A program made the translations under genes and the position numbers. The notes under the pieces are model-generated. The model did no database searches. It was not told where the DNA came from and was given only the letters and a program-made list of their open reading frames with translations. This document shows positions 10,168 to 28,405 of a DNA stretch of 64,000 nt, one piece after another. The number at the start of each line of letters is the position of its first letter. Positions within the stretch are counted from its first letter, which is position 1. Origin of the DNA: Dichetophora obliterata (taxonomy: Eukaryota > Arthropoda > Insecta > Diptera > Sciomyzidae); contig OY986439.1 in NCBI GenBank assembly GCA_963920525.1, forward strand, positions 44,112,193-44,176,192, given 5' to 3'.

Positions 10168-10377
10168 CTCGTTTAACCTTAACCCTGAATCTGACTCCCT
10201 CTACATTAAAAATACACCTAAAATTCATAGTACATCCTATCCTAATTTCGTGCACTCTCATACTCTAAGCCCATCTCCATCTGATCCAATTATAATTGAG
10301 CCCTCGAACCAACCTGTCAGTCCGAAGTCATTCCTAGACCCTCTACTACCACCAAGAGTCAAATAAACGTCAAATAA

Positions 10378-10707
10378 ACTGAGAGTAGATATGCCCTTTC
10401 TCGCCTTAGAGAGAACAGTGTATTTAATAACGTTCGCCTGTATCTCGCCTACATGCACAAAGCCCTTGATTCAACATGAATTGAAGGCAAGACTAAAACT
10501 AATCTTAAAGTTTTAATTCAGCAAGAAGGTCTGCCTACCGATGTTGATGACTTGCTTAACTTATTTATTCGTTTTCACGACCAACTCGGCGTGACGATCG
10601 ATCAAGTCAAGGCGGATCTTGATACCTATGGTGCTCACGTCAGGACTAAACATATCTCCCTTCTTCAAAAATCGCGTAAAGACCAACAACAATATTATCG
10701 TCCCTAA
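10378..10707 (+). pseudogene. LINE ORF1 C-terminal remnant
   Basis: Frame +1 encodes a basic, polar segment with EGLPTDVDDLLNLFIRFHDQ and a Lys/Arg-rich end, terminating with TAA at 10705-10707. It overlaps the start of ORF2, as is common for ORF1 and ORF2 of LINEs. The frame is broken by TGA at 10477-10479 and preceded by TAA at 10375-10377, so it is not functional. No nucleic-acid-binding motif is visible in the surviving part; assignment to ORF1 rests on position. Confidence 0.5.
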
Positions 10708-11952
10708 CTCCCATTTCTTAAATATATTTTACCATAACTGCGGCGGCATGAGAAGCAAATTAAATAAACTTTATGTTGACGCCAAATCATGTCACTTCAA
10801 TGTTCTAGTATTCACTGAGACATGGTTAAATGATACCTTCAATAATGAAGAAATTCTTGACAGTAATTGGACTGTCTTCAGAAACGATCGGGATTACTCC
10901 TCTACTGGTCTTTCTAGAGGAGGTGGCGTTCTCGTAGCAACTCAAAATTCTCTTTCAAGTGAGCTAATAGATACGCATACCCATAAACTTTTTGATCACC
11001 TGATAATTAAAGTCTGTTCAGGAAATAGTCTTTTTATGTACATAGGTGTCGTTTACATTCCTTCCGGCTCAAGTGAAACAACATACAACGAGCTATGTGA
11101 AACACTGTCCTCCTTTACATTCACTCTTAAAGAGGAAGATAAGGTTGTTATTCTTGGTGACTTCAACCGGCCAAATATCTCTTTTGTCGTTGATGAAAAT
11201 GACAAGTATCTTCTTCCTGTTAACCTTTCTAATGCCATAGATTTCTCATTATTTAGTACATTTTATGGCAACGATCTGCAGCAAGTTTCTTCTGAACAAA
11301 ATAAAAATGGCAGATTGTTGGACCTTATCTTTACAAACTCGTACGATGAAGTGAAGGTTAGTCCATGCACTAAAGCAGAAAATTTATTTACTAACACTGT
11401 TCACCATACAGCTTTAACAGTTGCTTTCTCTGCTAACGACCTTATTTTTACCCAGTCTTATAATAACTCTATTGCATACGATTACCTCAACGCCGATTAC
11501 GAAAGTATTAAATGTTATCTAAATGCTCTAAACTGGAATAATATTCTATCCAACATAGATTTAGACAGCGCTGTCTCAAGATTTTATCAGCACATTTTTA
11601 CTGCTATCGAAAATTATGTGCCAAAAATAAAGAAAAAGAATAAGAATAAGCTTTCGGAGCCATGGCTAGACAAAGATCTCAGATTTTTGAGAAATCAAAG
11701 AAATAAAATTTACAAACTTCTCAAAACCACCGATAATGTAAGCGATGAACTGAAGCTAAGCTATGACGAGCTATCTAAAGAGTTCTCTATCAAGTCAGAA
11801 GAAGCGTATAAGTTGTACACTAACCTTATCGGCGAGAAAATTGTCGAAGATCCACAAAAATTTTTTGACTTCGTTAACATGAAGCGAAAATCTAGCGGCT
11901 ATCCATCTTCTATGTTTAAAGGTGATGTCAATTCCTCCAACCCTCATGAAAT
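10619..11952 (+). pseudogene. LINE ORF2, 5' part: apurinic-type endonuclease and linker
   Basis: Residues 1-444 belong to ORF2; the frame then runs into the inserted LTR and ends artificially at 12145. The endonuclease/exonuclease/phosphatase fold is recognisable from YHNCGGMRSK (about 38-47), the catalytic Glu in FTETWL (E67), the glycine-rich SRGGGVLVA (99-107) and GDFN (180-183). The C-terminal motif that is normally Ser-Asp-His reads VHH (261-263), so a catalytic Asp appears lost. A basic stretch (KIKKKNKNK) and a coil-rich linker follow. The product would nick target DNA for target-primed reverse transcription. The first Met is used as the start; the true start may be nearer residue 35. 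Confidence 0.85.
11949..11952. repeat. target-site duplication AAAT, left
   Basis: AAAT immediately precedes the 5' LTR and recurs immediately after the 3' LTR at 26304-26307. It is a 4-bp duplication typical of Ty3/gypsy integrases. Confidence 0.9.
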
Positions 11953-12870
11953 TGTAAGGACCAAAACTTTTGTAAAGTTTTGCCCTACATGTTTTAATAG
12001 TAATAACTTTCATTTCAGATATCGTTTCCTGCTGGGTCATACACGGTCGACTACACGCACAGTCCAACCAGAATTACCCAGTGCGGAGGTTAGCCATGCG
12101 AGGGCCACTTCAAGGGTGGTCAAGGCTAAATATGACAGGAGATGAGGAGTGGTTGGCCCAATCTAGGGGTTTAGATTAGGTTAAAGTAGGTTAAGGAAAA
12201 GTGAATTATAGGCTAAGTTATTTCTAATATTCTTTATGTACTTTTATTTAATATGCTTTTATTTTTATTTTATATATATACTTACCTTTATATAAATAGT
12301 ATTTATTTATATAATATATATAATAAAAGCAGGAATGAATTTAAACCAGACCTACCATGACGTTCTTCATCTTAACTTAGTCAGACAGGAACCACTTAGT
12401 CATGCCAATAAGGTGTGCCCCCATTTTCTCACAGGGATGCTGGAAAGCATAAAACACATTTAGTTAAATTCCATATAATTGTTGCTTCGGCAAAACTAAT
12501 GCGTAATTAAAAACAACAGCTATACGATCAGGCGATAATTTGTTGTATTTGCTTTTTTCATTGCATGTAACAACGGCACCATCGTACGATGTATATGAGA
12601 GACGAACACCTGCATGAGATGAACATAACAAGCGAGGGTATATCAAACTAGAATCGAGATGAAGAAGTCAGTCTTGTTTGAAACGCGAAACCGAGAAGTC
12701 CACCAGTGAAACACCAGTCTTATTTAAACCGCGAAGTAGGACAGTAAGTCCATCGAGTGAGCAGCAGTTTACAAACAGCAAAACTTCCTTTACGACAGCT
12801 ACGCTAAGACAGCGCAGCAGCGACATCGACCGTCAGGACGACAGCGCCAGAGCAGCGCAGTCAACGCAGG

Positions 12871-13197
12871 CAGCGGACGTGAGTCAACGGTAGCAGCGCC
12901 ATACAGCTCTGCCAGATCTACCGCATCCTGCCAACAGCGACACAGCCGCACAGTTGAAAGAGACTTCGGCGTGAGCAGCAGGATAACTGCGCTAACAGCG
13001 CAGTATTGATCATCGACACCGACGACAACAGCGACAGAACCGCACGGCCTAGCGGGCAGCGGACGTGCGTCAATGGTAGCAGCGCCACATAGCGCTGCCA
13101 GATCTACCGCATCCTGTCAGTAGCAACAGAGCCGCACAGTTGAAAGAGACTTCGGTTTGAGCAACAGGATAACTGCGTCAACAGCGCAGTATTGATC
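12871..13197 (+). repeat. LTR internal repeat A, two copies
   Basis: Copies begin at 12871 and 13058 and share AGATCTACCGCATCCTG, CCGCACAGTTGAAAGAGAC and GCGCAGTATTGATCATCGAC. Both recur in the 3' LTR, shifted by 11,790 bp. Confidence 0.8.
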
Positions 13198-13653
13198 ATC
13201 GACATCATCGACAGCACCAAAACCGTATAGCCAAATCGGCAGCAGCAGTGCACCAACGACGTCGTAATTAATCAACGACGATTAACAAAGTCGACGTCAA
13301 CAGCACCAATTTCGCAGCAGCCACAAGCGTCAGCACCAGGAAGACGTCAACAGCGACAGAGACAGAGCAACGCCGGCCATACCAGGATAAATCCTGAAGT
13401 CAGCAGCAGCAGGACCATATTAAGTATCATTTATTCATTCCTTTTTATTATATTGATTCTTGTAGATTTATTTAATAATAATTTCGTAGATAATTAAATA
13501 CATTTTTAAATAATTTGATATCAGCTTAACGTAGTAAAAATATGAAATATTCTTGCTAACAAATATTTGAATAATTTAATATTAAAAGTGAGTGAAATTA
13601 AATAAATCATAATAGCCAAATTAATTCCCCCTCAAACCTTATTCCCACCTCCT

Positions 13654-14104
13654 ACGAGATTAGTGAGAACGCGAACTCTCGGATCCACTGTCCAAGGTCA
13701 AGCCCGTACCCAACGTAAGCTTGGTCTTTAAACCTAACCTAAGCATCCTTTTCCTCGGCGAATCACAAGCTTTGCGTGAACTGCGACTTGTGACCCGATT
13801 GCATTTTCCTTGCCTCAAGGTTAGCGAGAACTGCGACCCTTTTGTGCTTCTAACCATCCAGTCCGTTCTTAATCCTCCAAAAACCTATTTTCCTCCAACG
13901 AGATTAGCGTGAACGCGAACTCTCGGATCCGCTGTCCAAGGACGAGCCCGTACCCAACGTAAGCTTGGTCTTTAAACCCAACCTAAATATCCTTTTCCTC
14001 GGTGAACTACAAGCTTAGCGTGAACTGCGACTTGTAGCCCGATTGCATTTTTCCTTGCCTTAAGGTTAGCGAGAACTGCGACCCTTTTGTGCTTCAAATC
14101 CATC
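13654..14104 (+). repeat. LTR internal repeat B, two copies
   Basis: Copies begin at about 13654 and 13899. They share GAACGCGAACTCTCGGATCC, CCCGTACCCAACGTAAGCTT and GAACTGCGACCCTTTTGTGC. The same pair is present in the 3' LTR. Confidence 0.85.
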
Positions 14105-14165
14105 CTTTCCTTTGGCATTGTAACGCATTCTCCCCGGCTGATTAGACAGTTGGAATTTAAGGACA

Positions 14166-14330
14166 ATATTTAAACTACAGAAACTCACAATTAATATTTA
14201 AATTACAAAATATTATTTAAATTACAAAGCATTATTTAAATTACAAAGCATTATTTAAATTACAAAACATTATTTAAATTACGAAACATCTATTAAACTA
14301 CGAAACATTATCTAAATTGCGAAACATTAT
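14166..14330 (+). repeat. AT-rich tandem repeat in LTR (20-22 bp units)
   Basis: About eight units of the type ATTATTTAAATTACAAAGC, becoming more diverged toward the right. It lies just upstream of the 5' LTR end and is mirrored in the 3' LTR. Confidence 0.8.
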
Positions 14331-14514
14331 CACAGATCAATTTGATTAGGGTAGCTCTAGGTAGATTTAAGTTAGATTTAAGCTACGAATTGTGAATAAA
14401 TATTGTCATTATTTGAAAACCCTTGAGTTTGATTTAGTGTTTGCAATTACTAAATTCTTGCAACGATCCTGGTTCCGGCGAGCTTACCTCAGCCGTGAGA
14501 ACGCATCGTTACAA

Positions 14515-14532
14515 TGGCGCCCGAGCAGGGAC
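14515..14532 (+). promoter_or_regulatory. primer binding site, tRNA-Lys
   Basis: TGGCGCCCGAGCAGGGAC begins one base after the 5' LTR. It matches the complement of a tRNA-Lys 3' end at nearly every position and would prime minus-strand DNA synthesis. Osvaldo-type fly elements are known to use tRNA-Lys. Confidence 0.9.
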
Positions 14533-15492
14533 ACTAAATCAATCTCAATAAAAGGATATTAAGCTAAATACTTGACCATCTTTGAAGACAATATTAATTA
14601 AATTCACAATTTATAGCTCATTTCAGAATTGCTTAAATTCTACCAAATTTAGTGAGCTTTAAATTGAAATATTTTGGAACTTAATTATCTTCTCCCAATT
14701 TAGCTGCGAGAATAACATTAAATATTCTTGAAACTGTATATCGTTTTAAGGACATTTAATATCATAATTTTCTGCTCTTGATTTAGTTATTTTGTTTTTG
14801 TGGTCACAAGTCGTGAGCAAGAGGTAGCCATAAGGGACTACATACTCACGAAACCAATTTAATAATTGAATTAGTTAATTTAAATATTCTGCCGTCGCAT
14901 ACACGATAGCCAAAGGAGCCTATCTCGCGTAAGGATATTTAAATTTGTTGACCGCTGTAAAAGTAAATAAATTAAATATATTTTAACAACATTTAATTTT
15001 AAATAAAAGCCAATATCGTGCGAAACTAGATACATGTTGAATCGTATCCCCTCGCATGTGCTTTTAATAAATTGTATAATTCTGCTTACTGAGAGGTTGG
15101 ACAAATCTTGATAAACTTACCACACCTAGAAAATAGACCACGACCTATTGACACATAGATAGTTGGGAGATACTATAAGTCACAGGTCTATTGGTGGTAA
15201 ATTAACGGTGTCGTTTGATAACTATATCAAGATTATTGAATACGTTTTATATTGATTTTAATTTGAATTTTTGGGTGAGGCAAAAGTGCCACCCGTGCGA
15301 AACATTTTTGAGTCATTGAGTGTGAGACCTAGCAGAGGGCTAACGAACACGATATATTAAATAAACTTTCTTTAATAATTTTATTGGATTTTCAGAGGTA
15401 TTAAAACACGTATCAGGTAGGAATTTGCAACGGTAAAGGCATTCTTACATTCTTCCTTGAATTTAGGTTGGGCGAGTGGGTAATAAGAAAAC

Positions 15493-15523
<31 letters not shown>

Positions 15524-15571
15524 TTATATTATCACCACGTTATTGCGGCAACTAAACGGAACAAAGTCACC
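14533..15571 (+). other. 5' untranslated leader of the LTR element
   Basis: About 1 kb between the primer site and the gag start, with no long open frame in the gag direction. It has a run of about 24 A at 15493-15516. It probably holds the packaging signal, but I see no diagnostic structure. Confidence 0.6.
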
Positions 15572-16744
15572 ATGGTCAAGACCTCATGGATACACAGCCT
15601 TCGGAAGGATGACTTGCAGATTTACGCCCTCGAGTTTGGGCTCAGCGAGGAAGGAACTGTGGAGGAATTACGCAAGAGATTTGCAGCCGCCGTGGTCGAT
15701 CTTGAAGACAACCCGCAATTACAAAAGCGGTTGGTGGAGCTGGAAAGCAAACACAGCGACCGAAGAACGCCATCGCCACGACCGGGAACACACACAGCTG
15801 CGCTCAGTCTACCAGGCCAAGAGGACATACCGGTGAGCATCACGATACCCGAGGTGCCAACAGGACGAGGGAGATTTCACGAGGCATCATCGTACGGCAA
15901 TATTATGGACCAGGTCCGAAGGTGGCCCGTTAGATTCGAGGAGGGCCGAGACCCCTTGGAATTCGTTGAGCGGCTAGAGGAGCTCGCCTGTGTATACAGC
16001 GTGGATAAGGACCACTTTCCTAGGGTGATGCCCGAGCTGCTCAAGGACCGAGCCCTCATTTGGTGGCGAAATAATAAAAACTCCAGTGAATCGTGGGCAA
16101 ATTTTAAACACAGATTCCTCACCTATTTCCTGCCAGCCAGATTCTTTGAGCGCCTAGAGGACCAAATACGAAGTCGAGTACAGAAGCCGCAGGAGAGGTT
16201 CAAAGAATATAGCCTGGACCTTATCGATCTGATGCGGCATGCTCACTGGACCGAAGCACAAAAGGTAGAACGAGTTTTCAGAAACTGTCGACAGGAGTAC
16301 CAATTATACATACGACGACGCGATTTCTCGAGCTTCACCGAATTGCTCTCCCTTGCTGAGGACTACGAAATCATACGAGGGTCGGAAGGACCGAGTAGGA
16401 ACCCTCAGCGAAGCAAGGAGGAATTGTATCGATCTGCCATACCAAACACAGCAAAGGCGAAAGCACCAGAGCAAATTCCAGACGAACGGCATAGTCATAT
16501 GGAACCGGAACCACCACCAGTAGCCGAATTTATCAACGTCCGAATAGCCTGCAGCAGATGTGGTCAAGAGGACCATCAGCCAACGGAATGTAGAAACGAT
16601 CGAATATGCTTCTGTAAGGAATGTGGACGACGCGGCCGAGCTACCTTCGAATGTTGCGAAACACAGTTTCAGGGAAACGCCAGAGGACCCGCTCCAGTTC
16701 GAGGAAAGAACGGGTCCAGCCGCCACACTCCTCGACAGCAATAA
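15572..16744 (+). CDS. gag: Gag polyprotein (capsid and nucleocapsid), Ty3/gypsy
   Basis: The 390-codon ORF starts at an ATG in a good context (GTCACCATGG). A retrotransposon Gag domain spans about residues 110-260, with WPVRFEEGRDPLEFVERLE, LLKDRALIWW and FKHRFLTYFLPARFFERL, the last matching the capsid major-homology-like region. The nucleocapsid has one standard zinc knuckle (C327-x2-C330-x4-H335-x4-C340). A second follows in which the His position is Arg (CKECGRRGRATFEC), so it may not bind zinc normally. Gag would assemble cytoplasmic particles and package RNA. The ORF overlaps pol; a GGGAAAC slippery site at 16672-16678 lies in the gag frame as G-GGA-AAC, about 20 codons before the stop. 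The sequence is intact. Confidence 0.92.
   Translation: MVKTSWIHSLRKDDLQIYALEFGLSEEGTVEELRKRFAAAVVDLEDNPQLQKRLVELESKHSDRRTPSPRPGTHTAALSLPGQEDIPVSITIPEVPTGRGRFHEASSYGNIMDQVRRWPVRFEEGRDPLEFVERLEELACVYSVDKDHFPRVMPELLKDRALIWWRNNKNSSESWANFKHRFLTYFLPARFFERLEDQIRSRVQKPQERFKEYSLDLIDLMRHAHWTEAQKVERVFRNCRQEYQLYIRRRDFSSFTELLSLAEDYEIIRGSEGPSRNPQRSKEELYRSAIPNTAKAKAPEQIPDERHSHMEPEPPPVAEFINVRIACSRCGQEDHQPTECRNDRICFCKECGRRGRATFECCETQFQGNARGPAPVRGKNGSSRHTPRQQ
16672..16717 (+). promoter_or_regulatory. -1 programmed frameshift signal (GGGAAAC plus stem-loop)
   Basis: GGGAAAC at 16672-16678 is in the zero frame as G-GGA-AAC, the canonical X-XXY-YYZ form, and a one-base backward slip enters the pol frame. After a 6-nt spacer, GGACCCG (16685-16691) pairs perfectly with CGGGTCC (16711-16717). 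The loop element TCGAGGA (16699-16705) is complementary to TCCTCGA (16729-16735), so an H-type pseudoknot can form. The frames, spacing and pairings were checked by hand; the frameshift efficiency is unknown. Confidence 0.85.
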
Positions 16745-19700
16745 AACACCTACAACATGATGACAGGCGAATCTGGGTACGAGTGCAAATAGATCAGCAC
16801 GAAATAGAGGCCACCATCGACACAGGAGCCACACGCAGCTTTGCCAGCCACACGCTAGCAAATAAATTACGCACTACCAACAATCAACAATTTACTACAA
16901 CCAACGTGCGCATGGCCGATGGGTCTTTGCAGGTAGTTGAAGAAGCCCTGAGCGTGAGAGCAAGAGTAGGATCAAGGCAATGTAAGTTACACCTGCTCAT
17001 CCTGCCTGGAGTAACAGATGACCTCCTACTTGGGATGGATTTCTTAATAAGGACCAAAGCCACTTTTGGCTGGGGTAACCAAACTATTATGCTACGGCCT
17101 GTAAAAAACCCTGTACCCAGCGAACCAGCGTGTACAACGATGTCTGATGTCCCAGCGCCCCGAGAAGAATCATTGGATGAATTTTTAAAAACCGAGCTAC
17201 AGGAATTCGACGCTCTACAAGGAACCGCCCACGTGCCGCCACATAAGATTGTCATGACGGATGACCGACCCCTCAAACAACGTTATTACCCGAGGAACCC
17301 GGCAATGCAGGGAATCATCAACCAGGAGATAGACGAGCTGCTAGAAAAGGGCTTCATAGAGCCGTCCCACAGCCCACACAGCGCGCCCATAGTGCTGGTG
17401 CGTAAGAAGACTGGCTCGTGGAGGCTATGCATCGACTACAGGCAGCTGAACGCGAAGTCGGTTCCAGACGCATACCCCCTGCCCCGAATACACCACATTT
17501 TGGACAGGCTGCGCAACGCCAAATATATAAGCAGCCTTGACCTGAAGAATGGGTACTGGCAGATTCCAATGCATTCAGATAGCAAAAAGTATACGGCCTT
17601 CACCGTCCCAGGACGAGGTTTATTTCAGTGGCGCGTAATGCCCTTCGGACTACACTCAGCACCGGCCACATTCCAGCGAGCATTGGACACCGTCATCGGC
17701 CCCGAATTGGAACCGTTCGCCTTCGCGTATCTTGATGACATCATTGTGACAGGAGGTTCAAAACAGGAGCATGTCCAAAATCTGAAGGAGGTGTTTAGGC
17801 GGTTACGAGCGGCAAACCTTAAGCTGAACATAGAGAAGTGCGAGTTCTTCAGGTCCGAAACGAAGTACCTTGGACATGTAGTAAGCGAAAGCGGAATACA
17901 CACCGATCCGGATAAGGTTGCGGCCATCAAAAATCTGGCACCGCCGACGAGCCTTCGGGAACTGCGTCGATATCTGGGTGTGGCGTCGTGGTACCGCCGT
18001 TTTGTACCCGATTTTGCCACTATCTCGCAGCCTATGACACAATTGCTGAAGAAAGGCAAGCATTGGCGATGGGGACCTGAACAACAAGAAGCGTTCGAAG
18101 CCTTAAAAGGAAAATTGACCAAGGCGCCTGTCTTAGCCTGTCCAGATTTTAGCCGAACCTTCGTACTGCAGACCGACGCGAGCGACTACGGGCTCGGCGC
18201 AGTACTGACGCAGGATTTTGACGGCACCGAGCGCGTAATAGCCTACGCCAGTCGTCACCTCATCCAAGCCGAACGCAATTACAGCCCTACGGAAAAGGAG
18301 TGCCTGGCCATCGTGTGGGGCATCCGGAAAATGCGCTGTTATTTGGAAGGCTACCACTTCAAAGTTATCACCGACCATCTTTCTTTGAAATGGCTGAACT
18401 CGATAGAGAGTCCGTCCGGCCGCATCGCGCGGTGGGCTCTCGAGTTGCAGCAATATAGCTTTGACATCCAGTACAGACGCGGTAAGCTGAACGTGGTGGC
18501 GGACGCATTGTCAAGACAACCGTTGGAGGACTTGTGCAAGACTACTGAGGTTACGGCAGAAACACAGCATTGTCCCTGGCTAGAGCGACGAAAACAAGAG
18601 GTTCGAGACAATCCTGAAAAATTTCCTGATTATATGGAAGAAGATGGCAGCCTATACCGACACATACCTAACCAGATTGGTGACGAAGAAGCAGCCGCTT
18701 GGAAACTATGCGTGCCGACATACCTGCGAGCGAGAGTTATGGCAGAAAACCACGACCAGCCCAGCGCCGGCCACCTTGGAGTTCGTAAGACCATTGGCCG
18801 CATAACCAATCGCTATTACTGGCCTGGCCTGTTTCGAGCTGTCAGCCGATATGTGAGAAGCTGCGAGATATGCCAACGCTACAAATCAAGCCAGCAGGCT
18901 CCGGCAGGGAAAATGTTGTCCCGCATCGCGGACGAGCCATGGTCCGTCGTGTGCGCCGATTTTGTTGGGCCATTACCGAGGTCGAAGCACGGTAACACCA
19001 TGATTTTGGTACTATTCGACAAATTTAGTAAATGGACCGAAGCGGTACCGATGCGCAAAGCCACCAGCGATAATTTGAAAAAAGGTTTTCGAGAAAGAAT
19101 ATTAGCCCGATTTGGAGTCCCAAAGGTACTCATAACTGATAACGGCTCTCAGTTTTGCAGTCGTGCATTTCGGAAGTTCCTGCAGGAGATTGGTACCCGG
19201 CAGCAGTTTACCGCCCCGTATTCACCGCAGGAAAACCCGACTGAGAGAACCAACAAGACGCTCAAAACAATGATAGCGCAATTCAGTCGAAATCAACATA
19301 AGACGTGGGATGAGTGTCTACCAGAGCTCACCTTGGCACTGAACAGCAGCAAGTCTGATGTCACTGGCTTCAGTCCGGCATTTCTAGTGCAAGGTCGAGA
19401 ACCAAGACTCCCTGGAGCACTCTTCGATGAGCAAACGATGGGCACCGGCCGAGAAGTTCAATCACCAACAGCACGTGCAGAACAACTGCAAGAAATATTT
19501 AAACTTGTGCGCTGCAAATTGAGTCAAGCTACGCGCGACCAGGCGCGTCACTACAATTTGCGTAGGCGTGATTGGCAGCCAAGGATAGGCGAGAAGGTCC
19601 TCGTCAAACAACATCCGCTGTCTAGCGCAATAAACAGCTTCGCTGCGAAATTAGCTCCCAAGTATGAAGGCCCTTACGTCGTCATCGGATTTATTTCGCC

Positions 19701-20328
19701 CGTGATTGCACAGCTTCGCAAGAAAGGTGAGTCCAAAGTAAGAAAAGCTCATGTCGGCGAACTGAAGAAGTTCGTTGACGGGACCAACGTCGTTAAACAA
19801 GGTCAAACAGCGGCAGCATCCGCGGAAACAACTGCACAGGGCCAAGTGAGCCGCGACGGGACCAACGTCGTTAAACAAGGTCACAATCGCGGCAACAACC
19901 GCGTTAACAACTGTGAGGAGGCGGCAGCACCCGCAGAAACAACTGCACAGGCGGCCGCATCCGCAGAAACAACTGCCAACCGCGGCGGCAACCGCAAAAC
20001 CAACTGTCAAGGAGGAGGGGTCAAGCAGGCGGCCGCATCCGCAGAAACAACTGCCAACCGCGGCGGCAACCGCAAAACCAACTGTCAAGGAGGAGGGGTC
20101 AAGCAGGCGGCCGCATCCGCAGAAACAACTGCCAACCGCGGCGGCAACCGCAAGACCAACTGTCAAGGAGGAGGGGTCAAGCAGGCGGCCGCATCCGCAG
20201 AAACAACTGCCAACCGCGGCGGCAACCGCAAAACCAACTGTCAAGGAGGAGGGGTCAAGCAGGCGGCCGCATCCGCAGAAACAACTGCCAACCGCGGCGG
20301 CAACCGCAAAACCAACTGTCATAAGTAG
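16679..20328 (+). CDS. pol: Pol polyprotein: protease, reverse transcriptase, RNase H, integrase
   Basis: It is expressed by a -1 frameshift from gag, so the coding start given is just after the slippery site; the frame is open from before 16621. Numbering from the first Met at 16621: aspartic protease with DTG at 67-69; reverse transcriptase about 225-410, with LDLKNGYWQIPM and YLDD at 370-373; RNase H with TDAS at 518-521 and YSPTEKE at 555-561; integrase with the H711-H718-C748-C751 zinc site and catalytic D780 (CADFVG), D840 (TDNGSQF) and E875. No chromodomain is seen. The last 125 or so residues are an in-frame 26-residue tandem repeat. All motifs are intact. It lies on the same strand as gag and is followed by 1.4 kb of untranslated sequence before the protease ORF. 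Confidence 0.93.
19951..20322 (+). repeat. 78-bp tandem repeat encoding the pol C-terminus (about 4.8 copies)
   Basis: Copies begin with GCGGCCGCATCCGCAGAAAC at 19951, 20029, 20107, 20185 and 20263. The unit is 78 bp, exactly 26 codons, so the frame is kept. Encoded units contain AAASAETTANRGGNRKTNCQ. Copies differ by only a base or so, which shows recent expansion. Looser relatives of the unit occur upstream (19805-19950) and downstream (20370-20465). Confidence 0.92.
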
Positions 20329-21721
20329 AAGACGAAGTACGACGAGCCAACGTCGTTTTAAAAAATGGGCAAAGAGGCGGCAGCAACCGTAAGAACAACT
20401 GCATCATCGCGGCGGCATCCGCAGGACAACTGCAAAAACGCGGCGGCAACCGCTAAAACAACTGTGGAAAGCGACAAGTACCAGTCGAAATACGACGCGA
20501 CCATCGTCATTAAAAATAGGTCAAACGGCAGTGGCAGTGTGTCAACGGCTGTAGTGTCTTAATAGAGCTACAAGATCCACCAGAGCCTGGTTACAGCAAC
20601 AGAATCGTGCAGTCAAAGGACCACGGTATGAGCAACAGGACTACTATACCATGCAGGATAGTAAGGATCACCAGAGTCATCGACAACAACCCCAGAGTCA
20701 TCTAGCCGAATACGACGCGACCATCGTCATTAAAAATAGGTCAAACGGCAGTGGCAGTGTATCAACGGCCGTAGTATCTTAATAGAGCTACAAGATCCCT
20801 AGGAACCTGATCACAGCAACAAAATCGTGCAGTCAAGAGTACCACGGTATGAGCAACAGGACTGCTGCGCCAGTAGTGCAGTAAGGATCACCAGAGTCAG
20901 CGATAAAAGCACCAGAGCCATACAGCCAACTCGGCGGCCGTATCCGCCATAAAACAACTGCCAAACCGCGGCGGCAACCGCGCAATAACTGCACCCCGAG
21001 TAGCGAGACGAAAAACCTCAAGTGGACACCAAAGTGGCGACACCAGCTGAAAACAACTGTTAGAAGGTTGTACAATCCCAAAAGATGGAACCAAATACGT
21101 TCACAATCCCGTAGTACAGCATAAGAGTTCAAGAAAATCGACAAAATTACGAATTAAGAACATAACCTGCAACGTAATAAGACGTAACCAACGAATAGAA
21201 AGCGTAAAGTTAGAAAAGCTTAGGTAAAGACAGGCATAATTGAGAATTAAAAGTCATCACGACACAGGGTTATGCTATTCATTCTCACGATTGAGATTAA
21301 TAAAATTGACAAAATTCATATTTTATGTCGGATAGAATGTGTAAAATTCTATTTGAATAAAATTCCGCCGTATTTGATGTATTCTTAACACCTCAAACCC
21401 CCCCTACAGCTACCAACCCAACACTATGCTCACTTTCTCCTAGCGATACCTTTCGTGGTCGTATGACCCAAGTAGTGCGACATCGATGTTACGTGTACAC
21501 AACACTTGAAAATCGCAGCCCTGAAAATCTAATCAGAAAATAACAACACTGGTTGTTATCGGAAAATCGGACAGACCTGCAACACTAGAAATTTAAACAA
21601 GCATTCGTTATTATTATTTCGAAAACAACACAACAAGCGAACTGAAAGGTAAACTTATAAATCTCCAAATCAACTAATAACATCGATTTAAACGATTTAT
21701 TCAGGAAAATCCAAGTGCAAA
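20329..21721 (+). other. non-coding interval between pol and the protease ORF, with 220-bp direct repeat
   Basis: No long open frame. A segment beginning near TACGACGCGACCATCGTCAT at 20491 recurs at 20711 (220-bp offset), including TAAAAATAGGTCAAACGGCA and GAGCTACAAGATCC. Parts such as ATGAGCAACAGGACTAC resemble the internal repeat A of the LTR. Near 21385-21409 the sequence TTCTTAAC followed by a C-rich tract and CCCCTACAG resembles a branch point and 3' splice site, which could serve a spliced mRNA for the downstream ORF. Confidence 0.6.
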
Positions 21722-23734
21722 ATGAAGCGAGCAAATGATGGAAATGGTACACACCATCCTGCAAGAGCAGAAGAGCAGTGCAAAAGGGTCGACATAGCCA
21801 GCACCTCATCGGTAAATCGCGACAGCTTAACCACAGCGGCACGCGAATCCAATGTCAGCAGAACGTCAACTCAAGACCACGAATCGGCCATACTCATCTA
21901 CCCCCCCGGCCAGGGCGGCATCACTATCTACCGCTCTGATTACGAGCGAATTGCGTGCGGAAGGCTATTTAACGATAGCCTCATCGAATTCTATTTGAAA
22001 TGGTTGTACCTTCAGCAACCGAGTCCCACACAAGCGAGCGTACACATCTTTAGCTCACACTTTTTCACGCAGCTCAGCCAGGTGGCCAGTGACGGTTACG
22101 AACCGAGTCAGATCGACCGACTGCGTCGCTGGACAAAACGCATTCGACTCTTGGAAAAAGCATACATTGTAGTGCCCATCAACGAAGGATGTCATTGGTA
22201 CTTGGCGATTATATGCCTGAAACGCCAGTTGTGCCCAGTACCGCGACGTGGTAGGATATGGATCCTCGACTCGTTTGCCAACGCACCCAGAAGCCATGTA
22301 GCGCCAATATTGCGCACATACCTCCAAAGCGAGTGGAAGGCAGCGCACCCAAATGCTACCCTTGCAGCTTGGAACGAGGCTACAGTGCCAAGCTACGATG
22401 TTGTGGTCCCACAGCAATTAAATTCAACAGACTGTGGGCCATTCGTACTTCACTTCGCAGACTTATTTTTGCGCGAGCCTGGAGCAGACCTACGAACAGT
22501 CGGCGGCAGAGAGTGGTTCTCACCCATCGAGGCAGCCAACAAGCGACGCGAGCTCGCAGAATTAATAACTGGCTTGGTAGAAAAATCAGTCAGGACCAGC
22601 CTGCCACCACTATACCTGACTGAATTCATCAGCACAGTGAAAACCAACAGCGCAGCCATAAAAACACCTCCAGCACCAGCCAAGGCTCCGAAAAGACAAC
22701 AGCGACCAATCCAGCGTACACCACGACGATTCCGACGTGATAGCTCATCTGACGACAGCACCAGCTCCAGTAGTAGCAGCTCGTCAACGTCAACCACTAC
22801 TAGCCCTAGCACCAGCAGCACCACGCCCAACGCAAACAAAACAGCATCGATACAGAGTCCCAGCAAAGCGTCGACAAAACGGAGCAGCAGTTCTTCACCC
22901 ATCGTCTTTACATGGCCAGACCCACCACAGCATGCCAGCACATCCCAGTTACGTGAAAGCGTGATTTGTGCCCCACAACAGCGTTGTTTACAACAGCAGC
23001 AACGATTTGAGAGCGATTTCGCACAGCTCAGCTGTGAACCTATGCCAGGTCCCACGAACAGCACCACGACGCGCGCCAGCGTCATCCACAAATTCGGCTA
23101 CGTCAGTCTGCAAGAGCAGCCAGCAGAAGCAAGTAAGCCCGAAACCGAGGCCCACGTCAGCAGCTTGCCAGAGCAGCAAGCGCCCATTCACAGCGCGCGG
23201 CAATATGCCAGCGCCAGCTACTCGAGCGGCCAACCGCAAGTCCCACAGAAGGCCACAGAATCTGTCAAGAGCCATCCATTGGGACAACAGGCCGAAACCT
23301 TGTTTAAAAGACAAGTAAACTTCAAACGCGCATGCAAACGCGCGCTCAACCGCATCAGCTTGAATATAGCAGCACGCGGATCCCGACGACAGCCAAGCGC
23401 TCCCGGCACCTCACAACACGCACACGTCCGAGTCCAAGATCCCCTCTTCCTAAGGGAGATGACAGAGAAAGTATCTCCAGCAGAGGCCATCGGTGAGGAC
23501 AGCGACATGAGCCTGGGCGAGCTTCGTCAAACAACCACAGGATGGTCAACCCAACCTCTTCCAGCTACCGATCCTCTGAAACCCTACTTCAGTAAATTAT
23601 TAGCAGAACAACATCAGCACTGGGTACAAGAAGGCAAAAGGATCCGGTTCCTCGTCACCATCGGTAACCGCCAATTCCAGGTGAACATCCGCAAAGACGG
23701 CACCGAGACCCTCCGCCACCGCCCACTGAAGTAA
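21722..23734 (+). CDS. Ulp1/SENP-like (C48) cysteine protease carried by the LTR element
   Basis: The intact 670-codon ORF starts at ATG 21722 with A at -3. Residues about 65-250 match the Ulp1 SUMO-protease fold: CGRLFNDSLIEFYLKWLY (79-96, substrate-side helix), HIFSSHFF (108-115), YIVVPINEGCHWYLAII (148-164) with catalytic H158 and the following Trp, WILDSF with D183, and QQLNSTDCGPFVLHF with oxyanion Gln232 and nucleophile C238. Known relatives cleave SUMO precursors or remove SUMO from proteins; some viral relatives process structural proteins. The rest has a Ser/Thr-rich low-complexity stretch (about 345-385), a basic segment (about 535-575) and a small C-terminal domain (about 625-670). 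It lies in the env position and its stop overlaps the polypurine tract. No signal peptide or membrane segment was seen. Its substrate is unknown. Confidence 0.88.
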   Translation: MKRANDGNGTHHPARAEEQCKRVDIASTSSVNRDSLTTAARESNVSRTSTQDHESAILIYPPGQGGITIYRSDYERIACGRLFNDSLIEFYLKWLYLQQPSPTQASVHIFSSHFFTQLSQVASDGYEPSQIDRLRRWTKRIRLLEKAYIVVPINEGCHWYLAIICLKRQLCPVPRRGRIWILDSFANAPRSHVAPILRTYLQSEWKAAHPNATLAAWNEATVPSYDVVVPQQLNSTDCGPFVLHFADLFLREPGADLRTVGGREWFSPIEAANKRRELAELITGLVEKSVRTSLPPLYLTEFISTVKTNSAAIKTPPAPAKAPKRQQRPIQRTPRRFRRDSSSDDSTSSSSSSSSTSTTTSPSTSSTTPNANKTASIQSPSKASTKRSSSSSPIVFTWPDPPQHASTSQLRESVICAPQQRCLQQQQRFESDFAQLSCEPMPGPTNSTTTRASVIHKFGYVSLQEQPAEASKPETEAHVSSLPEQQAPIHSARQYASASYSSGQPQVPQKATESVKSHPLGQQAETLFKRQVNFKRACKRALNRISLNIAARGSRRQPSAPGTSQHAHVRVQDPLFLREMTEKVSPAEAIGEDSDMSLGELRQTTTGWSTQPLPATDPLKPYFSKLLAEQHQHWVQEGKRIRFLVTIGNRQFQVNIRKDGTETLRHRPLK

Positions 23735-23742
23735 GGGGGAGA
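23733..23742 (+). promoter_or_regulatory. polypurine tract
   Basis: AAGGGGGAGA directly abuts the 3' LTR and would prime plus-strand DNA synthesis. It overlaps the last bases of the protease stop codon. Confidence 0.88.
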
Positions 23743-26303
23743 TGTAAGGACCAAAACTTTTGTAAAGTTTTGCCCTACATGTTTTAATAGTAATAACTTT
23801 CATTTCAGATATCGTTTCCTGCTGGGTCATACACGGTCGACTACACGCACAGTCCAACCAGAATTACCCAGTGCGGAGGTTAGCCATGCGAGGGCCACTT
23901 CAAGGGTGGTCAAGGCTAAATATGACAGGAGATGAGGAGTGGTTGGCCCAATCTAGGGGTTTAGATTAGGTTAAAGTAGGTTAAGGAAAAGTGAATTATA
24001 GGCTAAGTTATTTCTAATATTCTTTATGTACTTTTATTTAATATGCTTTTATTTTTATTTTATATATATACTTACCTTTATATAAATAGTATTTATTTAT
24101 ATAATATATATAATAAAAGCAGGAATGAATTTAAACCAGACCTACCATGACGTTCTTCATCTTAACTTAGTCAGACAGGAACCACTTAGTCATGCCAATA
24201 AGGTGTGCCCCCATTTTCTCACAGGGATGCTGGAAAGCATAAAACACATTTAGTTAAATTCCATATAATTGTTGCTTCGGCAAAACTAATGCGTAATTAA
24301 AAACAACAGCTATACGATCAGGCGATAATTTGTTGTATTTGCTTTTTTCATTGCATGTAACAACGGCACCATCGTACGATGTATATGAGAGACGAACACC
24401 TGCATGAGATGAACATAACAAGCGAGGGTATATCAAACTAGAATCGAGATGAAGAAGTCAGTCTTGTTTGAAACGCGAAACCGAGAAGTCCACCAGTGAA
24501 ACACCAGTCTTATTTAAACCGCGAAGTAGGACAGTAAGTCCATCGAGTGAGCAGCAGTTTACAAACAGCAAAACTTCCTTTACGACAGCTACGCTAAGAC
24601 AGCGCAGCAGCGACATCGACCGTCAGGACGACAGCGCCAGAGCAGCGCAGTCAACGCAGGCAGCGGACGTGAGTCAACGGTAGCAGCGCCATACAGCTCT
24701 GCCAGATCTACCGCATCCTGCCAACAGCGACACAGCCGCACAGTTGAAAGAGACTTCGGCGTGAGCAGCAGGATAACTGCGCTAACAGCGCAGTATTGAT
24801 CATCGACACCGACGACAACAGCGACAGAACCGCACGGCCTAGCGGGCAGCGGACGTGCGTCAATGGTAGCAGCGCCACATAGCGCTGCCAGATCTACCGC
24901 ATCCTGTCAGTAGCAACAGAGCCGCACAGTTGAAAGAGACTTCGGTTTGAGCAACAGGATAACTGCGTCAACAGCGCAGTATTGATCATCGACATCATCG
25001 ACAGCACCAAAACCGTATAGCCAAATCGGCAGCAGCAGTGCACCAACGACGTCGTAATTAATCAACGACGATTAACAAAGTCGACGTCAACAGCACCAAT
25101 TTCGCAGCAGCCACAAGCGTCAGCACCAGGAAGACGTCAACAGCGACAGAGACAGAGCAACGCCGGCCATACCAGGATAAATCCTGAAGTCAGCAGCAGC
25201 AGGACCATATTAAGTATCATTTATTCATTCCTTTTTATTATATTGATTCTTGTAGATTTATTTAATAATAATTTCGTAGATAATTAAATACATTTTTAAA
25301 TAATTTGATATCAGCTTAACGTAGTAAAAATATGAAATATTCTTGCTAACAAATATTTGAATAATTTAATATTAAAAGTGAGTGAAATTAAATAAATCAT
25401 AATAGCCAAATTAATTCCCCCTCAAACCTTATTCCCACCTCCTACGAGATTAGTGAGAACGCGAACTCTCGGATCCACTGTCCAAGGTCAAGCCCGTACC
25501 CAACGTAAGCTTGGTCTTTAAACCTAACCTAAGCATCCTTTTCCTCGGCGAATCACAAGCTTTGCGTGAACTGCGACTTGTGACCCGATTGCATTTTCCT
25601 TGCCTCAAGGTTAGCGAGAACTGCGACCCTTTTGTGCTTCTAACCATCCAGTCCGTTCTTAATCCTCCAAAAACCTATTTTCCTCCAACGAGATTAGCGT
25701 GAACGCGAACTCTCGGATCCGCTGTCCAAGGACGAGCCCGTACCCAACGTAAGCTTGGTCTTTAAACCCAACCTAAATATCCTTTTCCTCGGTGAACTAC
25801 AAGCTTAGCGTGAACTGCGACTTGTAGCCCGATTGCATTTTTCCTTGCCTTAAGGTTAGCGAGAACTGCGACCCTTTTGTGCTTCAAATCCATCCTTTCC
25901 TTTGGCATTGTAACGCATTCTCCCCGGCTGATTAGACAGTTGGAATTTAAGGACAATATTTAAACTACAGAAACTCACAATTAATATTTAAATTACAAAA
26001 TATTATTTAAATTACAAAGCATTATTTAAATTACAAAGCATTATTTAAATTACAAAACATTATTTAAATTACGAAACATCTATTAAACTACGAAACATTA
26101 TCTAAATTGCGAAACATTATCACAGATCAATTTGATTAGGGTAGCTCTAGGTAGATTTAAGTTAGATTTAAGCTACGAATTGTGAATAAATATTGTCATT
26201 ATTTGAAAACCCTTGAGTTTGATTTAGTGTTTGCAATTACTAAATTCTTGCAACGATCCTGGTTCCGGCGAGCTTACCTCAGCCGTGAGAACGCATCGTT
26301 ACA
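23743..26303 (+). repeat. 3' LTR (2,561 bp)
   Basis: It has the same length and ends as the 5' LTR (TGTAAGG...GTTACA). I found no difference on inspection, and every small ORF inside it is identical at an offset of 11,790 bp. The internal repeats A and B and the AT-rich array are present at the corresponding positions. Confidence 0.94.
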
Positions 26304-26307
26304 AAAT
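26304..26307. repeat. target-site duplication AAAT, right
   Basis: AAAT follows the 3' LTR and matches 11949-11952. Confidence 0.9.
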
Positions 26308-27951
26308 CAGCAACTTATATGCAGAGTATTTTAAAGAAGTTTTCTGTGTTTTCACAAGTAATACTTATAGTTTCCCTCCCTTTTCAGGAATTTGCCCTAT
26401 AATTAATCATATCCAACTAACGTGTGATGAGATATCTAATGCGATTAAAGAAATTGATACAAATAAAGGACTCGGCCCAGACTTGTTACTCCCGCACTTA
26501 CTAGTCCGATGTTTAGACACACTTATGTCTTGTCTTTATATATAATATTTAACAAATCTCTACTCCAAGGATATTTTCCATCGTATTGGAAGATATCTCA
26601 CCTAACACCAATATATAAAAATGGCGATAAAAGGTCTGTTGAAAACTATAGAGGAATCGCCATATTATCGGCTATTCCAAAATTGTTCGAAAAAATTATA
26701 TGCGCAAAACTAACATCTATTATAAATCCTTTACTCAACGAACAGCAACATGGTTTCCGTAAAGCTAGATCAACCAAAACAAATCTAATGACTTTGATCT
26801 CTGATGTTTTAAGTAAAATGGAAAAAGGACATCAAGTGGAGGCAATATACACCGACTTTAGCAAAGCTTTTGATCGTGTCGATCATGATATCTTGGCTTC
26901 CAAATTGGAAAAGATTGGTATCTCAGGATCTTTGCTCAGTTGGCTGAAGTCCTATCTCCACGACAGGTCTCAGTTCGTAAAATTTCAAGGTACCTTATCC
27001 AAACAGATTTTAGTTACATCCGGCGTACCACAAGGTGGTCACCTTGGTCCACTTCTCTTTAATATTTTTATCTCAGACCTATCTGATATTCTTTGCGATA
27101 TCCCACATCTAATGTATGCAGACGACCTAAAAATGTACCATGTTATTAAATCGGAAACAGATGTAATTTACTTACAGTCGAAACTGTCATCTCTTGAGCA
27201 CTGGTGCAATCAAAATAAACTACATCTTAATGTTAAGAAATGCTGCGTAATAACCTTCTCCCGTAAAAATTTGGTAACAAATAACAGTTACTTCCTCAAT
27301 AGCATTGAACTTAAAAGAGTCAACCATATTGTTGATCTTGGTGTAGACTTGGACAACAATTTGCGTTTCAACTTACATTATGATAAAATTGTATCTAGGG
27401 CCAGCAAACTACTCGGTTTTATAAAACGGCGTGCAAAAGAGTTCAAAAATGTTTGGGTCACGAAAGCTTTATACTGCGCGTTAGTGCGCCCTATTCTTGA
27501 ATATGGATGCATTATTTGGAATCCTGCTTTCGAATTACACAGTGAAAGACTTGAATCTATTCAAAAGCAATTTCTGCTTTTTGCGCTTAGGGACACGTAT
27601 AACCCCCGTGAGTACAATATATTGCCACCTTATGATTTTAGGCTTAGCCGTCTGAATTTAATGCCCCTTTCAACAAGAAGGACTTTACTTAGTTCATGTT
27701 TTACCTTCGATGTCATTAACGGTGTTGTTGATAGCGAGTATATATCAAACAAGATACAATTTAATGACCCGATCAGACGTACTCGGCATACACGACTATT
27801 AAATGAATATCAACATCACACTGTCTACGCAAGAAATGAGCCGATAAATAGGTGCTGTAGAGAATTCAATAATATCAGCGAGTACTATTCACCCCCTATG
27901 TCTAAATTAACTTTTAAGAAAAATCTTTCCAAGTCCCTATTTCCGTCATAA
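26308..27951 (+). pseudogene. LINE ORF2, 3' part: reverse transcriptase
   Basis: It continues the endonuclease ORF after the LTR insertion, in the same frame, with NLYAEYFKEVF as the first conserved block. Near 26536-26545 a run of TATATATA shifts the frame; the change is consistent with a 2-bp TA expansion and splits the ORF at 26545. The main downstream frame (480 codons from 26509) has the reverse transcriptase motifs HLTPIYKNGD, NYRGIAIL, GFRKARST, the catalytic YTDFSKAFDRVDH (D116), SGVPQGGHLGPLLF and MYADDLKMY (ADD 204-206), followed by a thumb and C-terminal region. No RNase H is present. Apart from the insertion and the TA slip this half looks well preserved, so the LINE copy was fairly young when it was hit. 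Confidence 0.88.
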
Positions 27952-28405
27952 TACCTTCCTTTAAGCAACTAGGTTTGAAATCATAATCTATAATTAAGCA
28001 TGCCCTCTCCAAATCTTTTTTCCCTACTAAAAGCCCAATAATCCTGCGCTCTTCATTTATTGGCCTTTTAGACATTAAGAATCAAATGCTAAGATAATAA
28101 ATAGCCAGTCCAATTCCCTATTCCCTTCTCAGATCTCTCCTAATCTTATCAAATAAAATTCTTAGCTATATTACTGTGTATAAAATATGTTAGCATGTAA
28201 GTTCCTTTTCTTTTTCTTTTCTTCTCTCCTTTTCTTTTTGAAGTGTTATTGAATTCATGTCGATCAGGTGGGCGGATTACGCCCACATTGATTTGCATAT
28301 CTTCGAACACTAAAACAAGGAAATGGGAGAACGAAAAAAAAACAAACCTGTTAAAATAAGTAAATTGCATTGCTTGGCCAATAAATAAATAAATAAATAA
28401 ATAAA
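27952..28405 (+). other. LINE 3' UTR and AATA-repeat tail
   Basis: About 430 bp of non-coding sequence follows the ORF2 stop. It ends in a run of AATA units at 28380-28405, typical of LINEs that end in short tandem repeats rather than poly-A. Confidence 0.75.

Follow-up and report, generated by a model that had tools for sequence, protein, structure and literature searches.

A C48 (Ulp1/SENP-like) protease gene carried by a Ty3/gypsy retrotransposon lineage of the fly Dichetophora obliterata, and its possible role against SUMO-dependent silencing

Why would an LTR retrotransposon carry a protease gene of the Ulp1/SENP kind behind pol? The question is raised by a stretch of 64,000 nucleotides from the genome of the sciomyzid fly Dichetophora obliterata (contig OY986439.1; here called the window), in which a first-pass annotation, made from the letters alone, had pointed to an intact reading frame of 670 codons (ORF3) at 21722-23734 of the forward strand. 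This frame was borne out by the ORF reading and is, with very little doubt, a conserved element-encoded C48 protease gene. The broader statement, according to which ORF3 is a SENP6/7-like accessory gene of a Ty3/gypsy lineage that strips SUMO from silencing factors, is given about an even chance when the role is included.

The element and its insertion site

The element that bears ORF3 (11953-26303) is a complete and very recent Ty3/gypsy LTR retrotransposon, in which paired LTRs, a primer-binding site, a polypurine tract and a target-site duplication have all been found (Table 1). According to Pfam, the domains of pol follow the order protease, RT, RNase H and integrase, as in Ty3/gypsy, with gag also present; pol overlaps gag in the -1 frame. 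Read directly, the letters of the primer-binding site are TGGCGCCCGAGCAGGGAC, which we take to be of the tRNA-Lys type. ORF3 lies, as had been claimed, between pol and the polypurine tract, where the envelope gene stands in a retrovirus, and on the same strand as the rest of the element. The stop codon of ORF3 had been described as overlapping the tract: the two are adjacent, without overlap, the TAA (23732-23734) abutting GGGGGAGA (23735-23742).

The limits of the element were set at the insertion site. The exact repeat block measures 2562 nt (11953-14514 and 23743-26304), and its final base is best read as target or PBS-adjacent sequence. In fact, joining the flanks with a single AAAT restores a LINE-like frame of 531 aa that spans the insertion site, from which it follows that the LTRs measure 2561 nt and that the element runs from 11953 to 26303. 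The left part of this frame has an endonuclease-type match and the right side, in the next frame, a reverse transcriptase match (Pfam), so that the target of the insertion was a LINE. Since the two LTRs are identical over their whole length, the insertion must be very recent. LTRs of at least about 1 kb and a mostly 4-bp duplication, two criteria of the Osvaldo lineage, are both found here (2561 nt and AAAT, respectively), and the element probably belongs to this lineage. Two other identities were considered and rejected. An Env frame of an errantivirus does not agree with the Pfam results, in which no envelope family appears between pol and the 3' LTR and ORF3 is C48, and a DNA transposon of the Ginger1, Mutator or Crypton kind is ruled out by the LTRs, the RT and gag.

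Table 1. Features of the ORF3-bearing element, with positions in the window
Feature	Positions	Strand	Basis or remark
Target-site duplication AAAT, left copy	11949..11952	.	flank-joining
5' LTR, 2561 nt, same sequence as 3' LTR	11953..14513	+	exact repeat
Primer-binding site TGGCGCCCGAGCAGGGACACT	14515..14535	+	begins one base past 5' LTR
Candidate 5' splice donor GTAAAG, leader	15433..15438	+	prediction
gag, 390 aa: Retrotrans_gag and weak zinc-knuckle match	15572..16744	+	ORF, Pfam
pol, 1235 aa: aspartic protease, RT, RNase H, integrase	16621..20328	+	ORF, Pfam
78-nt tandem repeats, 3' end of pol	19948..20337	+	repeat analysis
Pyrimidine-rich 3' splice acceptor-like CTTTCTCCTAG	21433..21443	+	prediction; similar in close families
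GT-AG intron-like stretch, 56 nt, with CTAAT, just before ATG	21649..21704	+	prediction
ORF3: C48 (Ulp1/SENP) protease, variable linker, conserved C-terminal module	21722..23734	+	ORF, alignment, model
Peptidase_C48 domain, residues 82-253	21965..22480	+	Pfam, PDB sequence match, fold
Catalytic His158	22193..22195	+	PDB match, alignment A1
Catalytic Asp183	22268..22270	+	alignment A1
Oxyanion-hole Gln232	22415..22417	+	alignment A1
Catalytic Cys238	22433..22435	+	PDB match, alignment A1
PIVF in linker motif SSPI[VI]F; possible SUMO-interacting motif	22898..22909	+	role inferred
C-terminal helix and three strands, residues 620-668	23579..23725	+	predicted model
Polypurine tract GGGGGAGA	23735..23742	+	directly upstream of 3' LTR
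3' LTR	23743..26303	+	exact repeat
Target-site duplication AAAT, right copy	26304..26307	.	flank-joining

The protease gene, its copies and its conservation

The assignment to family C48, for which a profile search had been suggested as a check, was confirmed by Peptidase_C48 (PF02902; E=2.1e-28; 100.1 bits, with the cut-off at 20.7), the single domain above the Pfam cut-off in ORF3. The residues H158, D183, Q232 and C238 stand where the first-pass annotation had placed them and are invariant in all 14 rows of an alignment (A1) of ORF3s from 14 places of the same fly genome, in each of which C48 was found by Pfam; W159, S184 and G239 are among the other invariant columns. The same His-Asp-Gln-Cys set is also invariant in a second alignment (A2), which includes 14 database proteins. 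Among solved structures (PDB), the closest relatives by sequence are SENP7, followed by SENP2, SENP1, SENP5, Ulp2 and Ulp1.

In an AlphaFold2 model, built from an alignment in which 14 database proteins accompany the window ORF, the catalytic domain is mostly confident: 19 of the 23 ten-residue blocks between residues 61 and 290 have a mean pLDDT above 80. Values below 50 are found at 1-52, 337-524 and 551-611, and residues 620-668 comprise a helix with values of 66-72 and three strands with values of 82-86. When this model was compared with known folds (Foldseek), the top PDB match was human SENP7 (E=5.7e-18, TM by target 0.82), and the top match among viral models was a putative cysteine protease of the Feldmannia species virus (E=5.6e-9); a weak resemblance to poxvirus core proteases was seen as well. 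By its predicted model ORF3 has the Ulp1/SENP fold, and sequence and model together suggest that, within this family, it is closest to the SENP6/7 subgroup. We infer that ORF3 is enzymatically active and that SUMO is its target.

A search of the fly's own genome (1.31 Gb in 76 contigs) with ORF3 as the query gave at least 83 matches at no fewer than 66 places; at seven of these places, including the window, identity is 99-100% over all 670 residues and the frame is free of stops. Further searches were made with the Drosophila grimshawi protein P0001, excluding two host loci, and with the ORF3 of locus L017, and the union of the three gives at least 181 distinct C48 places outside the two host loci, a lower bound for C48 places, the element context of which was read for a part only. 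Twenty ORF3 places, chosen for diversity, were read as 10-kb stretches extending upstream, and in 19 of them gag and/or pol of the same kind lies upstream on the same strand; in the twentieth (L021) the stretch read holds only a 29% pol, a 65% gag being located 15.3 kb upstream. Neither of the two outcomes named in the first-pass annotation as refuting its reading has occurred: the C48 score is far above the threshold, and ORF3, as cargo of the element, is no one-off capture. That ORF3 should be a single captured host gene or an artefact of annotation is practically out of the question, since the at least 181 places, the gag/pol upstream in 19 of 20 loci and the purifying selection described below rule it out.

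The association was also examined from the side of gag, the search for which gave at least 118 matches at a minimum of 106 sites. Among the matches listed, C48 lies at most 16 kb downstream on the same strand at 52 of the 106 sites, with no match listed at 54; the opposite strand was found at none and the wrong side at 4. A gag of the window type lies upstream of 52 of the 66 ORF3 places, against 0 of the 51 places obtained from the P0001 search alone. Matches of the L017 ORF3 link 3 of 21 re-checked gag sites to C48. Three unlinked gag sites were read: one holds a full C48 core, another its initial 60%, where the stretch read comes to an end, and the third the ORF3 tail only. Because a C48 core was present on reading, part at least of the unlinked gag sites has a C48 outside the matches listed. 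The presence of ORF3 is established for the families read, not for every family of the lineage. Context was read for 2 of the 51 places known from the P0001 search alone, with gag, pol and then C48 in L038, and gag followed by C48 in L039, the pol frame of which is absent from the ORF list.

Selection was estimated as dN/dS across copies, as had been asked for, by the method of Nei-Gojobori in 20 pairs, 10 of which were informative for the core, 2 too close and 8 saturated or not computable. In the ten informative pairs, which fall into four groups of related copies and cannot be counted as independent, the values are 0.06-0.16 for the C48 core, indicating strong purifying selection on the catalytic part, and 0.21-0.90 for the remainder of ORF3. 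The RT gave 0.02-0.26 (six pairs), and the core is therefore constrained about as tightly as RT. The copies compared include two with the later part of ORF3 frame-shifted or interrupted (L023, L025) and one that is cut short (L033).

In copies without gag or RT, ORF3 is open as far as read. L010 and L022 have in common a deletion of most of gag and pol, and their ORF3s (that of L010 entering the comparison as L029) give dN/dS 0.16 over 313 codons at dS 0.05. For the RT-deleted pair L015/L026 the value is 0.42 over the first 210 codons (dS 0.06), and for the gag of the same pair 0.74 (dS 0.0075). The evidence for selection in non-autonomous copies is thus mixed, with 0.16 in one pair against 0.42 in the other and few changes in all.

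Origin and expression of ORF3

Two trees were built, one for C48 with 33 rows, in which the cut point is misplaced in a host retrocopy and in P0003 (the second half starts 15-20 residues early), and a quick one for RT with 68 rows. In the C48 tree, the 15 ORF3s of window type are united in a single clade (100/100), and these ORF3s, L038, L039 and the database protein P0036 fall with animal SENP6/7-type proteins at weak support (77/82), fungal, plant and SENP1 rows standing apart. The SENP6/7-type gene of the host joins that of Drosophila (92/85), with the mosquito and midge genes standing separately, which agrees with a dipteran host. In the RT tree, the window-type families are together (SH-aLRT 99), with L038 and a Eurosta element beside them (90) and the Drosophila and Musca elements further away. 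Three deep family groups agree between the two trees, which argues that pol and C48 have long been inherited together.

Relatives in other named species were sought among predicted proteins. The matches listed in protein searches with ORF3 (at least 17) and with A1 (at least 15) all look cellular by their names and domains, and no ORF3 relatives were found in the viral contigs and prokaryote genomes scanned, as expected for an insect element. As far as sequence can tell, a cellular gene like SENP6/7 was probably the source of the C48 domain. A search with pol found 4676 proteins, and among the best 120 listed C48 is present in one, P0036 (on a 6.4-kb contig), where it is fused to Pol in the same frame, after integrase, with H, D, Q and C present.

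A profile of the C-terminal 52 residues of ORF3 was run without filters on about 140 proteins and matches the extreme Pol C-termini of three proteins without C48 in that frame, namely P0027 (1.7e-5) and P0055 (0.0016), the RTs of which group with Musca elements, and P0083 of Drosophila subpalustris (0.0036); further matches lie at 0.1 or worse. The comparison suggests that the C-terminal module and its linker began as an extension of Pol, ahead of which C48 was later placed. The reverse order, a loss of C48, is conceivable too, as is a separate C48 ORF in these relatives. As Pols ending in the module occur without C48 in frame, the protease may not be generally needed by such elements.

The linker motif SSPI[VI]F is present in 9 of 17 ORF3 rows and could be a SUMO-interacting motif (SIM); by pattern, such a motif is found in only 2 of the 17. 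In Pol extensions, SIM-like motifs occur in 3 of 24 against 0.21 expected by shuffling, with a pattern chosen after two of the three cases had been seen. Such motifs occur in 3 of 118 Pol bodies as well. Among the three extensions, that of P0020 is part of a predicted protein in which a Pao-type peptidase is also present. The motifs in Pol extensions are a lead only.

With regard to expression, ORF3 starts 1.4 kb past pol and is preceded by an in-frame stop 30 nt ahead of the ATG, so that read-through from pol does not occur here. To judge from predicted splice signals, ORF3 of the window's group is probably translated from a spliced mRNA. An intron-like stretch of 55-61 nt is found in 10 of 10 places of this group, which are related to one another, a comparable stretch arising in 9-19% of shuffles per sequence; it is found in 0 of 5 places in the deeper groups L016/L019 and L017/L018/L020. 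No leader splice donor scoring 8/9 of the consensus was found in the window, only the weaker GGTAAAGG, which recurs at this place, some 140 nt upstream of the start codon of gag, in 6 of the 13 rows aligned and is a candidate, less certain donor.

Proposed role and comparison with known systems

In the mechanism proposed here, ORF3, an accessory gene of a large and recently active Ty3/gypsy lineage, would remove SUMO from chromatin-silencing factors at or near the site where the element itself is transcribed; the loss of SUMO would weaken piRNA-guided heterochromatin. SENP6/7-type enzymes edit SUMO chains. The piRNA-guided heterochromatin of flies depends on the SUMO pathway, and both the formation of heterochromatin through SFiNX and the repression of transposons in the ovaries of Drosophila require the SUMO machinery (PMC8733420). 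The retention of ORF3 fits a function at its own locus, because a helper directed at Gag or Pol could come in trans (L010/L022); where a lineage has lost most of these two genes but retained ORF3, a local benefit fits better than Gag/Pol processing. The lineage-wide form of this SUMO counter-defence, in which a Pol extension of the kind seen in relatives (two of them with a SIM-like motif) gained a captured deSUMOylase once or more, became a separate gene, diversified into many families and strips SUMO from piRNA/heterochromatin factors at its own locus, is tentative and falls short of an even chance. If true, stripping of SUMO at the own locus explains why ORF3 is kept by copies without gag or RT.

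It is also possible, and on balance rather unlikely, that ORF3 acts within the replication cycle, deSUMOylating Gag or integrase or cleaving the polyprotein and in this way controlling assembly or nuclear entry. Adenain-type relatives cleave polyproteins, and the position of ORF3, its co-inheritance with gag-pol, the fusion of C48 to Pol in P0036 and the weak fold likeness to poxvirus core proteases would all suit such a task. However, an aspartic protease is already supplied by pol, the closest match is SENP7 and not a viral maturation protease, and copies that need borrowed gag or RT still have an open ORF3, as far as read.

Non-autonomous copies also bear, with few changes, on an improbable reading in which ORF3 shifts the general SUMO or stress state of the germ cell, for instance favouring DNA repair at integration, without touching silencing: a diffusible effect would not favour retention by such copies over others, and no link of ORF3 to integration has appeared here. 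SENP6/7-like enzymes have many substrates, a point in favour of this reading, and a role of the same kind has been proposed for the Ulp1/OTU domains of Ginger1 (PMC2836005). Very improbable, finally, is a protease fold kept as a SUMO-binding or scaffold module, with catalysis not selected; it would agree with the fast evolution of the remainder of ORF3, and the SIM-like motifs in two C48-less relatives are compatible with SUMO binding, but none of the 14 rows departs from H, D, Q and C, which P0036 has too, and the rate of evolution of the core is about as low as that of RT.

Of the known systems, human SENP7 and the dipteran SENP6/7-type genes, presumably those named 'velo', are the best match to ORF3 in sequence and fold. 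Unlike them, ORF3 has only about 55 residues ahead of the domain, and it is without the long insertion of SENP6/7 between the catalytic halves (25 residues from H to D, against 151 in P0001).

Pol relatives of the window element occur in Drosophila and other flies, and its RT groups with fly elements; its likeness to Osvaldo is drawn from published descriptions. The Osvaldo lineage (Osvaldo, Ulysses and Isis, with cqgypsy of Culex) has long LTRs, mostly 4-bp duplications and a size like that of the window element, and its members in Culex have LTRs of about 1-2.1 kb, a tRNA-Lys primer site and a size of 6.9-12.5 kb (PMC3286476). The term 'ulp' is absent from this paper and from PMC5408442. Likewise, the terms SUMO, ulp and C48 are absent from a small set of papers on extra domains or ORFs of retrotransposons, and no Ulp1/C48 in an LTR retrotransposon was found in the titles and abstract starts listed from the open literature, Repbase and most subscription papers lying outside the search.

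Ulp1/C48 domains are known from DNA transposons of the Ginger1 (PMC2836005), Mutator-like (PMC13317346) and Crypton (PMC3212892) kinds. Ginger1 resembles the window element in joining a gypsy-type integrase with an Ulp1 (or OTU) domain (PMC2836005), but it is a cut-and-paste element with terminal inverted repeats, in which Ulp1 forms the C-terminus of the transposase and not a separate ORF of an LTR element. The oomycete CryptonF and CryptonS likewise encode a C48 peptidase, as an additional protein in some CryptonS (PMC3212892), but they are tyrosine-recombinase elements with an unrelated mode of mobility. An enzyme captured as an extra ORF is also found in orchid Ty3/gypsy elements with an AlkB-like m6A demethylase (PMC9289625), another enzyme in elements of plants, and ORF3 broadens the range of enzymes known to have been captured by LTR retrotransposons.

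A conserved Ulp1 in an accessory gene is likewise found in KIU/VANC of the Arabidopsis Vandal elements, which are Mutator-like; those that carry KIU escape epigenetic silencing, the function of Ulp1 there being unknown (PMC13317346). Unlike ORF3, KIU/VANC belong to plant DNA transposons and act on DNA methylation through recognised motifs. Maintained under purifying selection in many families of a single LTR lineage, a deSUMOylase-like gene would amount to an active counter-defence open to direct test, comparable with the anti-silencing genes that Mutator elements carry in plants, and would offer one explanation of why elements of this kind have done so well in a fly genome of 1.31 Gb.

Apparently non-autonomous copies and clustered C48 frames

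Five stretches read in the window's own genome (L010, L022, L015, L026 and L039) look like non-autonomous copies: in L010 and L022 gag is joined to the end of pol by one deletion, common to both, L015 and L026 are without RT, and in L039 the pol frame is absent from the ORF list. In each of them, the frame of the C48 (Ulp1/SENP-type) protease is open as far as read. SIM-like motifs (EISSESD, VISSDDEE and ELSSDDDD) were found in Pol extensions or before C48 (related Pol proteins P0027 and P0055; L039:4784-6301).

On contig C7, six C48 frames, open over 598 aa, form a tandem array on one strand with a spacing of 11.84-11.86 kb (G000:C7:12176437-12236751). C48 pairs about 10-11.6 kb apart are present on C1, C3 and C4 too, and one of them, at C1:145.15 Mb, consists of two window-family copies.

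Insertion site and internal repeats

The element is inserted into a non-LTR (LINE) element; once one AAAT is removed, the sequences on either side of the insertion join into a single 531-aa frame with an endonuclease-type match. Repeats are found inside the inserted element, and L042:1-460 matches the 78-nt-repeat part of the window pol at 96-98%.

Features of the element and its insertion site
Feature	Window position	Remarks
LINE flanks	10300-11952 and 26308-28000	
LINE reverse-transcriptase frame	26509-27951	480 aa; downstream of the joined frame
LTR internal repeats	14151-14369 and 25941-26159; 12866-13216; 13648-14051	one 19-nt tandem array; also two larger duplications, with spacings of 186 and 244 nt
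pol 3'-end tandem repeats	19948-20337	78-nt unit, in-frame

A second copy of the host SENP6/7-type gene

The cellular SENP6/7-type gene at C4:213.19 Mb has a second copy, L034 (G000:C3:108545267-108549442), which is probably a retrocopy; its 585-aa reading frame is uninterrupted and the catalytic motifs are present.
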